Assembly: GCF_017565705.1 (NCBI RefSeq)
Contig: NZ_JAGDYL010000001.1
Span: 372,001 to 436,000, forward strand
Direction: 5' to 3'
Length of the DNA stretch: 64,000 nt
From: Leucobacter ruminantium
GTDB lineage: Bacteria; Actinomycetota; Actinomycetes; Actinomycetales; Microbacteriaceae
Every line of letters starts with the position of its first letter. The stretch's first letter is position 1. Of the stretch, positions 34,022-49,234 are shown piece after piece. The notes under the pieces are model-generated. The model saw nothing but the letters and a program-made list of their open reading frames with translations, made no database searches and was not told where the DNA came from. The position numbers and the translations under genes were made by a program.

Positions 34022-34068
34022 TAGTGTGCGCTGAAAGCATTCAGCAACGATGCTGAAATAATTCAGCA
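34022..34068 (+). promoter_or_regulatory. Promoter with two LacI-type operators before the sucrose permease gene
   Basis: A -10-like TAGTGT (34022-34027) is followed by operator O1 GCTGAAAGCATTCAGC (34030-34045) and O2 TGCTGAAATAATTCAGCA (34051-34068, perfect 7-bp arms). The centres are 22 bp apart, about two helical turns. O1, extended to the 19-mer GCGCTGAAAGCATTCAGCA (34028-34046), is identical to the reverse complement of the operator at 46712-46730. Confidence 0.8.
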
Positions 34069-34093: not shown

Positions 34094-35392
34094 ATGGCCA
34101 TCAGCGCGAGACTGTTCAAAAACGGCGCGTATCTGCAAAGCTCGACGACGCTCTTCATCTTCTTCGCCTCGTGGGGCATCTGGTGGTCGTTCTTCTCGAC
34201 CTGGCTCGACAAGAGCCTCGGGCTCAACGGAGGCCAGATCGGCACGATCTACTCGGTGAACTCGCTCACGACGATCGCGGTGCTTCTGTTCTACGGCATG
34301 GCGCAGGACCGGCTCGTGCTCAAGCGCCACCTGGTGATCCTCGCCTCGGCGGTCATGGCCTGCCTCGCACCCTTCGCGATCTTCGTCTACGAGCCGATGC
34401 TCGTGAGCAACTTCCCGCTGGGCGTGCTGCTCGGCGCGATCTATCTGCCCTTCGGCTACACCGCCGCCGTGGGCCTGCTCGAGGCGTTCTCAGAGCGCCT
34501 GAGCCGCACCTACGGCTTCGCCTACGGTCAGGCCCGGGGTTGGGGCTCGCTCGGCTACGCCGTCGCCGCCCTCTTCACGGGGTTCATCTTCACCGTCAAC
34601 CCGCACATCAACTTCTACCTCGGCTCCCTCTTCGGCGTCGTCTGCCTCCTCGTGCAGATCTTCTGGAAGACCGACAAGGTGCCGCTCGCGCCGGGCCACA
34701 GCGATCACCCGCACGCACCCTCCCTGCGCGAGATCTTCTCCGTGCTGAAGCTGAAGCACCTCTGGATCGTCATCGGCTTCGTGATCTTCAGCTGGACCTT
34801 CTACAACCTCTACGACAACCAGATGTTCCCGAACTTCTACAGGGAGCTGTTCGTGAACGAGGACACCGGCCTGCACACCTACGGCATCCTGAACTCCGGT
34901 CAGGTCTTCCTCGAGGGCTTCTGCATGATGCTCGTGCCCATCCTCATGCGCCGCGTCGGCGTGCGCAACATCCTGATGCTCGGCGTCTCGGTGATGTGCC
35001 TGCGCATCCTCGGCTCCGCCGTCTTCACCGACCCGGTGATCGTCTCGGTCATCAAGATGTTCCATGCCATCGAGGTGCCTCTGTTCGTGCTCGGCATCTT
35101 CCGGTATCTGACGCTGCACTTCCCGGCCGCGCTCTCGGCGACGCTGTACATGGTCGGCTTCGAGATCTCGGCGCAGCTCGGCAGTGCCCTCTTCTCGACC
35201 CCCTTCGGCTACATCCGCGACGCGCTCGGCTTCCAGCCGACCTTCCTCATCATCGCCGGCGTCGTCGCCTGCGCGGGCGTCTGGGCGTTCTTCGCACTGA
35301 AGAAGGACGACGAGGACGTGCAGGGCGACCCGTTCATCAGGGCGAGCCGCTCAGGCGTCACCGGCGTCATCAAAACGGTGCAGCAACCGTAG
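34094..35392 (+). CDS. cscB: CscB-type sucrose:H+ symporter (OHS family, MFS)
   Basis: A 432-residue, 12-helix oligosaccharide:H+ symporter strongly resembling E. coli CscB along its whole length: FFASWGIWWSFFSTWLDKSL in helix 1, GTIYSVNSLTTI, PFAIFVYEPML, YGQARGWGSLGYA (helix 5), PHINFYLGSLFGVV, WTFYNLYDNQMFPNFY and MFHAIEVPLFVLGIFRY. These cover the charged and aromatic positions used for sucrose/H+ coupling in LacY relatives. ACGGAGGTCCGG precedes the ATG. It carries the same operator as the GH32-fructokinase gene 12 kb away. Substrate assignment by family plus shared operator; a related beta-fructoside is possible. Confidence 0.87.
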   Translation: MAISARLFKNGAYLQSSTTLFIFFASWGIWWSFFSTWLDKSLGLNGGQIGTIYSVNSLTTIAVLLFYGMAQDRLVLKRHLVILASAVMACLAPFAIFVYEPMLVSNFPLGVLLGAIYLPFGYTAAVGLLEAFSERLSRTYGFAYGQARGWGSLGYAVAALFTGFIFTVNPHINFYLGSLFGVVCLLVQIFWKTDKVPLAPGHSDHPHAPSLREIFSVLKLKHLWIVIGFVIFSWTFYNLYDNQMFPNFYRELFVNEDTGLHTYGILNSGQVFLEGFCMMLVPILMRRVGVRNILMLGVSVMCLRILGSAVFTDPVIVSVIKMFHAIEVPLFVLGIFRYLTLHFPAALSATLYMVGFEISAQLGSALFSTPFGYIRDALGFQPTFLIIAGVVACAGVWAFFALKKDDEDVQGDPFIRASRSGVTGVIKTVQQP

Positions 35393-37814: not shown

Positions 37815-41708
<3,894 letters not shown>

Positions 41709-41789
41709 AATGTTCTCCTTGAGAATCTGAAAATCTGTGGTGCGGGATCGGCCCGCGCCCCGCTATCGCGCGGGGCGCGGCCGATCTAC

Positions 41790-45287
<3,498 letters not shown>

Positions 45288-45545
45288 GGAAACTACCTCC
45301 GTGGGCCCCGTCGGGCCGGTTGACCTGGTCTTGCGAGAATTGCATCGGATCACGCGAGCGAGGCTCATATGCGCTTTCGCGCCAGCTCCCGGGGCCTACC
45401 GCTATATGAAGGCATACTGGTGTCCGTAGTGCAACTATCAACTGTAACACCATCGTTATCTGCTGTCCACTATCAGATGGTCGCCCGCGACTCTCCCAGC
45501 GCATTCCAAGATTGAGGGATCCTTACCGCCGATCGGGCGAGGCGA
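45288..45545. other. Leader/promoter region between rpoB and the lacI-type gene
   Basis: 258 bp without a gene. It contains the rpoB ribosome-binding site (45289-45300) and an AT-rich block (45420-45480) suitable for the rpoB promoter. An AGGGATCC motif lies near 45516. No ribosomal-protein leader structure was recognised; rplJL are not directly upstream. Confidence 0.4.
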
Positions 45546-46589
45546 TCAGCCGTGTCGAGATCGAGGCCCCTCGATCCTCCGCACCGAGTCGCGCACGACG
45601 AGCGGCATCGGCAGCAGCAGGCGGCCGGCCTCCCGGTCTCCGAGCAGCATCTCGACGCCGCGGCGCGCCATCTCCTCGTAGGGCAGTCGCGCGGTCGTCA
45701 GCCCCGGACGAAGGTAGGCGGCCAGCTCCTCGTCGTCGAACGAGATCACCGAGACGTCGTCGGCGACGCGCAGCCCGCGCTCCGCCATCGCCTGGTACAC
45801 GCCGAAGGCCATGTTGTCGTTGCCCGCCACGAGGGCGGTGAGCTCGGGGTGCTCGTCGAGCAGGCGGTGGGCGCACTCGTAGCCGATCTCGGGCGACCAC
45901 TCCGAGGTCTCCGTGAGCACGGGGCGCACCCCGGCCCGCGCGAGCGCTTCGAACAGGCCGGCGAAGCGGTCGCCGATGGTCGCGGAGCGGCGCGGGTCGC
46001 CGATCACGTCGGGCAACTCGCCGACGACGCCGATGCGGCGGTGTCCGCGCTCGATCAGGTGCTCGGCCACGGCCATGCCCGCGGCCCGTTCGTCGGGGAG
46101 CACGTGCGGATGCCCGCCCGGTGTGACGCCGTTCACCACCACGAGCGGGGTGCTCCCCTGCTGCTCGGGGATCTCGATCAGCCTGGCCGACATGAGGCCG
46201 ATGAGCAGGCCGTCCACGCGCCGGTCGGTGAGCTCCTGGAGGGCGTCCGCGAGGTCGTCTCCCCCACCCGTCTCGGTGATGAGCACGGTGTGCCCGTGCG
46301 CCTTCGCCGCATCGAGCACCCCGCGGATCATGCCGGATGCGTATCTCGTGATCGTGACCTGGTCGGAGACGAAGCCGATCGTGCGGGTCTTGCCCGAGCG
46401 CAGACTCTGCGCCGCGGGGTTGGGCCGGTAGCCGAGCTCGTCGGCCGCCGCGCGCACGCGCTCAGCCGCCTCCGCCGAGAGCCGTGTGTCGCGGCGGTCG
46501 TTGAGGATCATGCTGACGGCGGACTTCGACATGCCCGCGCGTCGGGCGACGTCGGCCAGCGTCGGGCGGCGTGCGGTGCCTCCGGCCAT
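45546..46589 (-). CDS. LacI-family repressor of the sucrose genes (CscR-like)
   Basis: A 347-residue repressor. Helix-turn-helix TLADVARRAGMSKSAVSMIL (10-29) with hinge helix, then a periplasmic-binding-protein-like sugar domain (IGFVSDQVTITRYASGM onwards; DGLLIGLMS; FDDEELAAYLRPGLTTARLP near the end). Divergent from the GH32-fructokinase gene. Its likely operator lies at 46712-46730 and is duplicated upstream of cscB. The inducer is presumably sucrose or fructose (inference). No sugar-kinase domain. Confidence 0.9.
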   Translation of the reverse strand: MAGGTARRPTLADVARRAGMSKSAVSMILNDRRDTRLSAEAAERVRAAADELGYRPNPAAQSLRSGKTRTIGFVSDQVTITRYASGMIRGVLDAAKAHGHTVLITETGGGDDLADALQELTDRRVDGLLIGLMSARLIEIPEQQGSTPLVVVNGVTPGGHPHVLPDERAAGMAVAEHLIERGHRRIGVVGELPDVIGDPRRSATIGDRFAGLFEALARAGVRPVLTETSEWSPEIGYECAHRLLDEHPELTALVAGNDNMAFGVYQAMAERGLRVADDVSVISFDDEELAAYLRPGLTTARLPYEEMARRGVEMLLGDREAGRLLLPMPLVVRDSVRRIEGPRSRHG

Positions 46590-46676: not shown

Positions 46677-46730
46677 TTGACGGCGCGTCGGGCGACGTGT
46701 TACTTTGCGTGTGCTGAATGCTTTCAGCGC
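46677..46730 (+). promoter_or_regulatory. Promoter and LacI-type operator of the GH32-fructokinase gene
   Basis: TTGACG (46677-46682), 18-bp spacer, TACTTT (46701-46706) form a sigma-70-type promoter. The operator GCTGAATGCTTTCAGC (46713-46728) covers the predicted transcription start. Its 19-bp extension (46712-46730) is the exact reverse complement of that before cscB. An ATG inside the operator (46718) is therefore unlikely to be the translation start. Confidence 0.8.
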
Positions 46731-46765
46731 GTCGCGGATCCCTCGCCCATGCGGAGAACCGAACG

Positions 46766-49234
46766 ATGTCAGCGCCGCTCCCACCCCGTATCCGAACGCG
46801 AGAGACGTTCCCCGATCCCGAACCCGGAGCCATGACCAGCCTGCACTTCGCCCCGCCGCTCAACTGGATGAACGACCCGAACGGCCTCGTCTTCCACGAC
46901 GGCCGCTACCACCTGTTCTTCCAGCACAATCCGCTGGGCACGGTGCACGAGAACATCAGCTGGGGCCACGCGTCGAGCCTCGACCTCGCGACGTGGGAGC
47001 TGCACCCGCTCGCCATCCCCTTCGACGAGGACGAGGAGATCTTCTCCGGCTCCATCGTGCTCGACGGCGAGGGATCCACGGGTCTCGGTACCCCGGAGAG
47101 CCCCGCCCTCATCGCCTTCTACACCTCCATGTCGAAGCGCGACGGAACCCAGGCGCAGTCGATCGCCTACAGCCTCGATGCGGGCACGAGCTGGACCAAG
47201 TACGCCGGGAACCCGGTGCTGGACCGCGGCTCCCTCGATTTCCGCGACCCGAAGGTGTTCCGGTGGACGGGCGCCGACGACTCGTACTGGGTGATGATCG
47301 CGGCGGAGGCCGAGGATCGCCAGATGGTGCTCTACCGCTCCGACGACCTGCTGAGCTGGACCCACCTGTCGACGTTCGGCCCGGCCGGCGCCGTGGGCGG
47401 CGTCTGGGAGTGCCCCGATCTCTTCCCGCTGCGGCTCGAGGGAACGGACGAGACCCACTGGGTGCTGCTCGTCAGCCTCAATCCGGGAGGGATCGCAGGG
47501 GGCTCGGGCACGCAGTACTTCGTCGGCGACTTCGACGGCACGGCCTTCACCCCGCTGGAGCCCCGCCGACCGGTCGAGTCGTCGGAGTCGGAGGGGATGC
47601 GCGAGCTGGACTGGCTCGACTACGGACGGGACTGCTACGCGGGTGTGACCTTCTCCGGGCTCCCGGACGACGAGCGCACCCTCATCGCCTGGATGGGCAA
47701 CTGGGATTACGCCAGGGAGATGCCGGTCGACCCCCGCGCACCGCAGCGGGGCGCGATGACGCTCCCCCGCAGGCTGTCGCTCGTCTCGGAAGCGGGTCGG
47801 CCCGTACTGCGTCAGACCCCGATCGGGCCCGAGCTCGCGGAGGAGACCCGACTCGAGGGGCTGGAGATCACGGACAGGACTGAACTCGCGATGCCCGTGC
47901 CCGCAGCCGGGCGCATCGAGGCGACCGTCGCCGTCGGGGGCGCGGCCGGCTTCGCCTTGCGCCTCGACGGCGAGGAGGGACGGAGCGTCGAGCTGAGCTA
48001 CGACGCCGGGACCGGGGAGCTGCGGCTCGACCGGCGCGGCGCGGCGGCCGGGCTTCCCGACTCCTTCGGCAGCGTCGAGCGGATGCCGATCGGGTCGGGC
48101 GTGCCGCTCGAGGCGGCCGAGCCGATCGAGCTGGTCATCTGGATCGACGAGCGCGCGATCGAGGTCTACGCCGACGGCGGAGTGCGGGTGCTCACCGACC
48201 TCGTCGGCGGCCTGCGGGCGCCGCGCATCTCCGTCGAGGGCGTCGACGGATCCGTCGCGCTCACCAGCATCACGAGCGCGGGGAGCGTCGCGAGCGCGGC
48301 GGCACGCGATACGGAGAGCCTCCCACCCGCCTGCGCCGCAGTGATCGGCGAGGCACTCGTCGACGTCGTCGAGGGGGCCGCCTACCCCGGCGGGTCGCCG
48401 CTCAACATCGCCATCGGCCTGAGCCGGCTCGGGGTGCCGACGGTGCTCCACACCCGGATCGGGTCTGACGACCACGGCCGGGGCCTCTCCGAGCACCTCT
48501 CGCGCTCGGGCGTCGAACTCGCGCAGGGATCCCTCGTCGAGGGCCCGACGGCGACCGCGGTCGCGACGATCGATGCGGAGGGGCGGGCGAGCTACGAGTT
48601 CGACATGGACTGGAGCATCCCGACGCCCGACACCTCGGCGTGCTCCATCGTGCACACCGGCTCCATCGGGGCCGTTCTCGAGCCCGGCGGGCGCGTCGCG
48701 CGCGAGGCCATCCGCAACGCAGGGGGTACCGTGCTGCGCAGCTTCGACCCGAACATCCGCCCCGACATCATGGGCGACGCCGATACGGTGCGGGCGCTCG
48801 TGCGCGAGCTCGCAGCGCTCTGCCACGTCGTCAAGCTCAGCGACGAGGATGCGCTCTGGCTCGGCGCCGACAGGGGCGCGGCTCCCGAGCAGGTGCTCGA
48901 CGAGCTCGCGGCGACGGGCGTCCCGTTCGCGGTGATGACGCGCGGCGAACAGGGCTGTCTCGCCGTCGTCGACGGCGTGCGGCACGAGCGCACCGCCCGC
49001 GCCGTCGAACCGGTCGACACCATCGGAGCCGGCGACGCGTTCATGTCGGGCCTGCTGTTCGGGCTCGTGCGCGACGGCAGCGACCGGCTGCTCGTCGAGG
49101 GAGTGCGGCTCTCGGCCGAGCGGGTCGAGCGTGCGCTCGACGCCGCGCTGGCGAGCGCCGCCGTCGCGGTGTCCCGCGCCGGCGCCGACCCGCCCGTGCG
49201 GGGAGAGCTCGAGGCCGTCCGCCGCGCGGGTTGA
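46766..49234 (+). CDS. Bifunctional GH32 beta-fructosidase - PfkB fructokinase fusion
   Basis: 822 residues in one uninterrupted frame. Residues 20-345: GH32 five-bladed propeller of the levanase/exo-inulinase subgroup with nucleophile Asp37 (NWMNDPNG), transition-state Asp161 (FRDPK) and acid/base Glu215 (ECPDL). About 355-512: GH32 C-terminal beta-sandwich. About 513-521: short Ser/Ala linker. 522-822: PfkB-family fructokinase with GEALVDVVEG, the sugar-binding YPGGSPLNIAIGLSRLG, and DTIGAGDAF with catalytic Asp757. No signal peptide, so intracellular. Start ATG 46766 with GGAG 8 nt upstream. It would hydrolyse imported sucrose or fructan and phosphorylate the released fructose. Both halves keep all key residues. 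Confidence 0.92.
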   Translation: MSAPLPPRIRTRETFPDPEPGAMTSLHFAPPLNWMNDPNGLVFHDGRYHLFFQHNPLGTVHENISWGHASSLDLATWELHPLAIPFDEDEEIFSGSIVLDGEGSTGLGTPESPALIAFYTSMSKRDGTQAQSIAYSLDAGTSWTKYAGNPVLDRGSLDFRDPKVFRWTGADDSYWVMIAAEAEDRQMVLYRSDDLLSWTHLSTFGPAGAVGGVWECPDLFPLRLEGTDETHWVLLVSLNPGGIAGGSGTQYFVGDFDGTAFTPLEPRRPVESSESEGMRELDWLDYGRDCYAGVTFSGLPDDERTLIAWMGNWDYAREMPVDPRAPQRGAMTLPRRLSLVSEAGRPVLRQTPIGPELAEETRLEGLEITDRTELAMPVPAAGRIEATVAVGGAAGFALRLDGEEGRSVELSYDAGTGELRLDRRGAAAGLPDSFGSVERMPIGSGVPLEAAEPIELVIWIDERAIEVYADGGVRVLTDLVGGLRAPRISVEGVDGSVALTSITSAGSVASAAARDTESLPPACAAVIGEALVDVVEGAAYPGGSPLNIAIGLSRLGVPTVLHTRIGSDDHGRGLSEHLSRSGVELAQGSLVEGPTATAVATIDAEGRASYEFDMDWSIPTPDTSACSIVHTGSIGAVLEPGGRVAREAIRNAGGTVLRSFDPNIRPDIMGDADTVRALVRELAALCHVVKLSDEDALWLGADRGAAPEQVLDELAATGVPFAVMTRGEQGCLAVVDGVRHERTARAVEPVDTIGAGDAFMSGLLFGLVRDGSDRLLVEGVRLSAERVERALDAALASAAVAVSRAGADPPVRGELEAVRRAG

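Follow-up and report, generated by a model that had tools for sequence, protein, structure and literature searches.

Can the hydrolase and the kinase of a sucrose pathway share one polypeptide, and if so, from what did such a protein arise? The question is raised by an open reading frame in a 64,000-nucleotide stretch of Leucobacter ruminantium DNA (here called the window), which a first-pass annotation had read as a single 822-codon polypeptide joining a GH32 beta-fructosidase to a PfkB fructokinase. The csc pathway, a tool of strain engineering, has invertase and fructokinase on two different polypeptides in the accounts available to us. The csc system consists of CscB, CscA, CscK, CscR, and operators, according to the accessible parts of two reports (PMC3938415, PMC11251922); CscA is an invertase in the former, which we follow here, versus a sucrose phosphorylase in the latter.

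Translation of the window confirmed a frame of 822 codons without interruption, with the following features.

46766..49234, plus strand: fused GH32 beta-fructosidase and PfkB fructokinase-like protein, 822 amino acids; the start is possibly at 46832 (M23)
46844..47818, plus strand: Glyco_hydro_32N domain, residues 27-351, holding D37, D161, and E215 (Pfam, 2.2e-84)
47915..48205, plus strand: Glyco_hydro_32C domain, residues 384-480 (Pfam, 1e-8); the modelled strands run on to residue 507
48287..48322, plus strand: interdomain linker, about residues 508-519 (from the model; low confidence at 516-518)
48356..49195, plus strand: PfkB kinase domain, residues 531-810, with D757 in GAGDAF (Pfam, 2.3e-35)

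Each of the three Pfam domains exceeded its curated cut-off. D37 lies in NDPNG, D161 in FRDPK, E215 in WECPD, and D757 in GAGDAF, and from knowledge of the families we take these four to be the catalytic residues. The protein thus combines the GH32N and GH32C domains and the NDP, RDP, and EC motifs that mark GH32 with the domain and GAGD catalytic Asp that mark PfkB, and both catalytic sets are kept, as first annotated. An ATG at 46718, 16 codons 5' of 46766, falls within an operator palindrome (see below), and 46766, which is preceded by GGAG at 46753-46756, or M23 (46832) is for that reason the likelier start. No hydrophobic N-terminus was found in the first 60 residues (best 15-residue mean, 0.34), in line with the earlier statement that a signal peptide is absent, and the protein is probably cytoplasmic.

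The AlphaFold model of the fusion (33 aligned rows) had a mean pLDDT of 91.5 and a pTM of 0.72, with both domains confident and only residues 1-24 and 516-518 under 50. The relative placing of the domains is weakly informed because just 2 of the 33 alignment rows cover both. The GH32 half matched the exo-inulinase chain 8i12 (phmmer, 1.2e-136), which was also the top solved Foldseek match of the fusion (47% identity), and the best 50 of 575 Foldseek matches (E up to 0.001) were GH32-type entries. It scored 170 and 173 bits against the sucrose-6-phosphate hydrolase model ScrB TIGR01322, below the cut-off of 356. The nearest solved relative of the kinase half by sequence was the PfkB fructokinase 7fca (1.2e-54); since this half reached only 126 bits against the NF006957 fructokinase equivalog (cut-off, 450) and owes its name to 7fca and to context, we call it fructokinase-like. 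The fusion is the sole GH32 match in the whole genome, which also encodes another kinase of this family as a gene of its own (G000:C48, 44% identity).

The surroundings of the gene bore out the csc-like setting proposed by the first-pass annotation, in that a LacI-type gene, a LacY/CscB-type symporter, and common operators were found.

46677..46705, plus strand: putative promoter TTGACG-17-TTACTT before the fusion (by eye; resembles the lacI-symporter promoter of relatives; a consensus promoter scan found nothing here)
46713..46728, strandless: putative LacI operator GCTGAATGCTTTCAGC before the fusion (palindrome search)
45546..46589, minus strand: LacI-family regulator, divergent from the fusion (family search)
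34094..35392, plus strand: LacY/CscB-type proton-sugar symporter (MFS), 11 kb from the fusion
34030..34045, strandless: putative LacI operator GCTGAAAGCATTCAGC before the symporter (palindrome search)
34052..34067, strandless: putative LacI operator GCTGAAATAATTCAGC before the symporter (palindrome search)

The palindrome GCTGAANNNNTTCAGC occurs at exactly three sites in the 3.3-Mb genome (34030, 34052, and 46713), only before the symporter and the fusion; the reversed-pattern control gave 0 sites, and shuffled windows held a mean of 0.07 sites with one mismatch allowed. None of the NCBIfam regulator models matched the LacI protein at cut-off, the fructose/sucrose repressor model TIGR02417 giving 114 bits against a cut-off of 390. 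The symporter exceeded the cut-offs of LacY_symp (PF01306; 378 bits, 4.8e-113) and of the oligosaccharide MFS transporter model TIGR00882 (363 bits; cut-off, 220), and passed the galactoside permease model NF007077 as well (487 bits; cut-off, 429). With the galactoside model also passing, and with six lactose permease and two nucleoside permease sequences as its solved relatives in a sequence search, the transporter does not itself point to sucrose; the linkage to GH32 does. The symporter is 79-84% identical to symporters preceding GH32 in three Leucobacter relatives and 66% identical to that of G535, a genome of the same order but another family; a 53% identical transporter adjoins GH32, ROK, and LacI genes on an Enterococcus faecium plasmid.

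The window thus holds the LacY-like symporter of a csc-type regulon (PF01306 and TIGR00882 over cut-off) and, by sequence, a LacI-family gene with operator-like repeats before the hydrolase and permease units. From fusion and lacI, the symporter lies beyond two genes that we take, from their protein sequences, to be rpoC and rpoB. Antisense to two large frames of this region (37815-45368) runs a 1,771-codon open frame (39948-45263, plus strand), which is probably a side effect of codon use in such GC-rich DNA. In four relatives (G043, G049, Leucobacter zeae, and G535), a divergent lacI faces the symporter gene, which is followed by GH32, and GCTAAANNNNTTTAGC is present in the lacI-symporter gap of all four. 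Taken together, the divergent LacI, the symporter, the common palindromes, and the layout in relatives argue for a csc-like regulon that is split in this genome and apparently held together by its operators. Both window promoters carry GCTGAA-type operators, whereas the four relatives have GCTAAA.

Judged by sequence comparison, the regulon is a mosaic: LacI and both fusion halves are nearest the other-family G535, and the symporter is nearest Leucobacter. LacI is 72.5% identical to that of G535 as against 69-70% otherwise, and the symporter is 84% identical to that of G043 versus 66% for G535; by percent identity alone, the Leucobacter GH32 proteins (65-66%) are as close to the window GH32 as that of G535. 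Perhaps the repressor and the fusion were acquired horizontally as one unit and became wired to a symporter that was already resident.

A survey of 54 genomes of the genus gave a GH32-part match in 6, of which four were close, namely that of L. ruminantium itself and those of G043 (66%), G049 (65%), and L. zeae (G053; 62%). Among these 54 genomes, GH32 and PfkB are fused in L. ruminantium and in G043, an assembly of 540 contigs with 8% contamination, in which the fused gene and the symporter group with Leucobacter. In G049, the GH32 and kinase genes are separate and overlap as ATGA; in L. zeae, the best kinase match is located far from GH32. The nearest unfused relative of the fusion is the gene pair in G535, where GH32 (66% identical) and kinase (62% over about 295 residues) are adjacent with an ATGA overlap, and the linker of the fusion stands about where G535 has this stop/start overlap. 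No further stop-free match over both halves was listed in sets of 398 family, 396 order, and 396 phylum genomes, sets which have genomes in common. These scans scored no more than two candidates in each genome, and a fused gene may be reported in two pieces, as happened with G043, so they do not prove that further fusions are absent. At scripted loci with duplicates merged by hand, same-strand GH32-then-kinase neighbours at most 400 bases apart were fused in 2 cases and separate in 26.

The two Leucobacter fusions do not group together. In the kinase tree, the window protein pairs with G535 (99/96) and G043 with G049 (98/87); in the GH32 tree, G043 groups with G049 and L. zeae (100/99), and the window protein with G535 (86/91, not starred). 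In a 34-row GH32 tree, the place of the window protein inside its 6-row group was not settled, and the G043-G049-L. zeae group stayed at 100/99. Common descent of the two fusions was rejected for the kinase (33 rows; AU p = 6.9e-59) and for GH32 (AU p = 6.6e-4; 16 rows, near relatives chosen by hand from a much larger set). With a preceding kinase set, of 28 rows, the AU p against holding the fusions together was 2.6e-53; for it, 7 of 35 rows were dropped (L136, L075, L087, L084, L030, L031, and L059), and the 33-row and 16-row tests omitted the same seven plus any rows of L150, L153, and L160. Since the nearest kin of each fusion, in both domains, are unfused genes, and a single origin would need later replacement of both halves, the simplest reading of these trees is that the two fusions are independent; a kinase half may have been swapped later.

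Several observations were made along the way. SAGDS replaces GAGD in one Leucobacter kinase branch (L007, L008, L016, L017, and L002), to which both the fused kinase from G043 and the window genome's stand-alone kinase belong. In G521 (L152:5456-8023, minus strand), GH32 and kinase genes lie in one frame with a single TAA between them. The GH32 frames of Agromyces (L082:129-3089 and L095:5878-8838) and of several other rows are about 850-1130 amino acids long, and their best match to the window GH32 stops near residue 262-297; these frames probably contain a large insertion or an extra domain.

Beyond these groups, we used the fusion as a query against 296 genomes from the phylum of Christiangramia sediminis (G1199, via L030) and 299 from that of a Neobacillus (G1200, via L075), scoring at most three candidates per genome, and translated six places picked by eye for long open frames. 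One of the six (G1715:C3) was a fusion of reverse order, with PfkB (30-337) preceding GH32 (362-831) in 852 amino acids. In the genus of Paenibacillus auburnensis (L072), which lies in G1715, 22 of 81 genomes had a full-length match, 20 of them without an internal stop, and all 12 fetched loci (12 genomes) were single frames of 824-859 amino acids with both motif sets, the first GH32 motif reading WANDP in four of the aligned sequences. In P. auburnensis itself, a 554-residue gene without a Pfam match and two BPD_transp_1 permease genes lie 5' of the fusion, and a GH32 gene with a Laminin_G_3 domain lies 3'. The Neobacillus (L075) has a kinase gene and then a GH32 gene, in the order of the reverse fusion, the two being adjacent with a few bases in common. 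Provided that the two Leucobacter fusions are independent, the domains appear to have come together on three or more occasions and in either order, and the fusion is convergent, not unique, as far as sequence can tell.

Other candidates were set aside. An apparent 857-residue fusion in Christiangramia (L030) has two in-frame stops between genes, and the candidates in G1749 and G1638 turned out to be unfused genes. In G327, a match without stops over 400-815 belongs to a kinase frame lacking GH32, with a RibD_C match upstream; this locus (L128:2733-4157, plus strand) places a kinase of the fusion's family in a 475-codon frame that may be a fusion with RibD_C or a read-through of frames. Apart from these candidates, another unexpected GH32 fusion was seen in G1771, of the Neobacillus phylum, where a 753-residue frame (L176:1482-3740, minus strand) joins an N-terminal NTP_transferase (nucleotidyl transferase) domain to GH32. 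Among plasmid records, tblastn with the fusion matched 1,413 of 72,556, and in 41 of them a single place spanned 80% or more of the query. Of the 25 plasmid matches listed among the 1,413, 22 annotate the hydrolase (called DUF4980 in one) and the kinase as two features, and three lacked annotation (H1, H8, and H12).

The first-pass annotation had known of no described example. Within the parts of the literature on such fusions, Leucobacter, or csc that we could consult, we likewise found no description of a GH32-kinase (PfkB) fusion; however, the protein does not stand alone, given G043 and the reverse-order proteins of the P. auburnensis genus. Domain-architecture databases probably already hold the Paenibacillus-type fusion, that form being common.

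The single frame could in principle be an assembly or sequencing artefact that conceals separate, overlapping genes, since a small error could hide a stop where G535 and G049 have ATGA overlaps, and the assembly, in 69 contigs, is a draft. The first-pass annotation had named a stop or frameshift near 48300 as one point on which its reading would turn, but no in-frame stop was seen at the junction, where the overlap is expected, and no ATG occurs in any plus-strand frame of 48206-48345. Third-position GC also remains at 0.92 through the junction (GH32 part, 0.92; residues 481-519, 0.92; kinase part, 0.93), which itself sits within a 437,666-base contig, some 17 kb short of one end, and G043, fragmented as its assembly is, has a second fusion with a different linker. 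We therefore regard an artefact as very improbable. In-frame GTG codons occur near the junction at 48341, 48434, and 48443, with no Shine-Dalgarno-like stretch seen by eye directly 5' of 48341. It is also doubtful, if less remote, that the kinase half is a passenger of a protein acting as a GH32 enzyme, with the stand-alone G000:C48 kinase phosphorylating the fructose, or that the chain is cut after synthesis. The second kinase gene and the distance between GH32 and its best kinase match in L. zeae would fit this, but the fused kinase keeps GAGD and a GGSPLN stretch, retains its 62% identity to the G535 kinase, and is modelled with high confidence.

A less unlikely alternative, though still not the one we favor, concerns the substrate, which might mainly be short fructo-oligosaccharides, levanbiose, or another beta-fructoside in place of sucrose. 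The proximity of the GH32 half to an exo-inulinase structure and its score below the ScrB cut-off both point that way. Against this, the LacY group carries disaccharides, and exo-fructosidases commonly cut sucrose as well. CscB, a member of the LacY group, takes sucrose according to the part of PMC11251922 available to us. Six Leucobacter strains produced no acid from sucrose or inulin, as given in the accessible text of PMC4804768, a point against our main reading if the present strain is like them.

We consider it likely that the gene encodes a cytoplasmic bifunctional beta-fructosidase/fructokinase of a csc-like sucrose/beta-fructoside regulon, derived from a translationally coupled gene pair. 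By analogy with the csc system, from families and layout, the symporter (34094-35392) would import unphosphorylated sugar, the GH32 half would split it into fructose and glucose (or a shorter fructoside), and the tethered PfkB half would use ATP to convert fructose to fructose 6-phosphate. The LacI-type repressor (45546-46589) would bind GCTGAANNNNTTCAGC before both transcription units until the sugar or a product released it. The gene itself may have arisen when a coupled GH32-kinase pair with an ATGA overlap, as in G535, lost its stop and start and gained a short linker, a direction suggested by the rarity of fusions; a coupling of expression once provided by overlapping genes would thereby have become covalent. 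Quicker capture of fructose is a possible further gain, direct handing of fructose from GH32 to kinase being something we only infer, and tethering need not be essential because the genome has a stand-alone kinase. The activities, the substrate, the repressor's binding and ligand, the direction of fusion, and any gain from tethering are accordingly all proposed here as predictions.

More tentatively, and with less than even confidence, we suggest that the joining of beta-fructosidase and fructokinase was invented at least three times (twice as GH32-PfkB in Leucobacter, once as PfkB-GH32 in the P. auburnensis genus), from genes kept side by side in relatives, because tethering captures fructose before it escapes or disturbs regulation, making this a natural, repeatedly selected two-enzyme assembly. 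The two steps may benefit from being tethered, given that similar joins seem to have arisen separately, and their convergent recurrence in both orders provides a naturally occurring test of whether linking consecutive enzymes raises flux. The unfused G535 operon, 62-66% identical, would be a matched control. The fusion is also a possible part for sucrose-using strains.

Compared with the E. coli csc regulon (cscR, cscA, cscK, and cscB), as far as the consulted accounts describe it, the Leucobacter system is alike, by families and layout, in its LacI-type repressor, LacY-like proton symporter, predicted cytoplasmic sucrose hydrolase and fructokinase, and inverted-repeat operators. It differs in that hydrolase and kinase form one protein, the symporter is 11 kb off, and the GH32 is nearest exo-inulinase. 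The G535 operon shares LacI, symporter, GH32, kinase, and a palindrome at the same promoter position, and differs in having two genes with an ATGA overlap, the operator GCTAAANNNNTTTAGC, and the symporter inside the operon. The G043 fusion, from the same genus, has the same domain order and regulon type, with its symporter directly upstream, but a longer acidic linker, a kinase of the other branch (SAGD), and a symporter that still adjoins the gene. The proteins of the P. auburnensis genus carry both domains on one chain of 824-859 amino acids with both motif sets kept, in reverse order, downstream of ABC permease genes, and in another phylum. Partner sugar enzymes also occur within one polypeptide in the Mak/Pep2 and TreS fusions of some Chlamydiae, as the available portion of PMC11046441 describes them, although the enzymes and the pathway are unrelated to those considered here.
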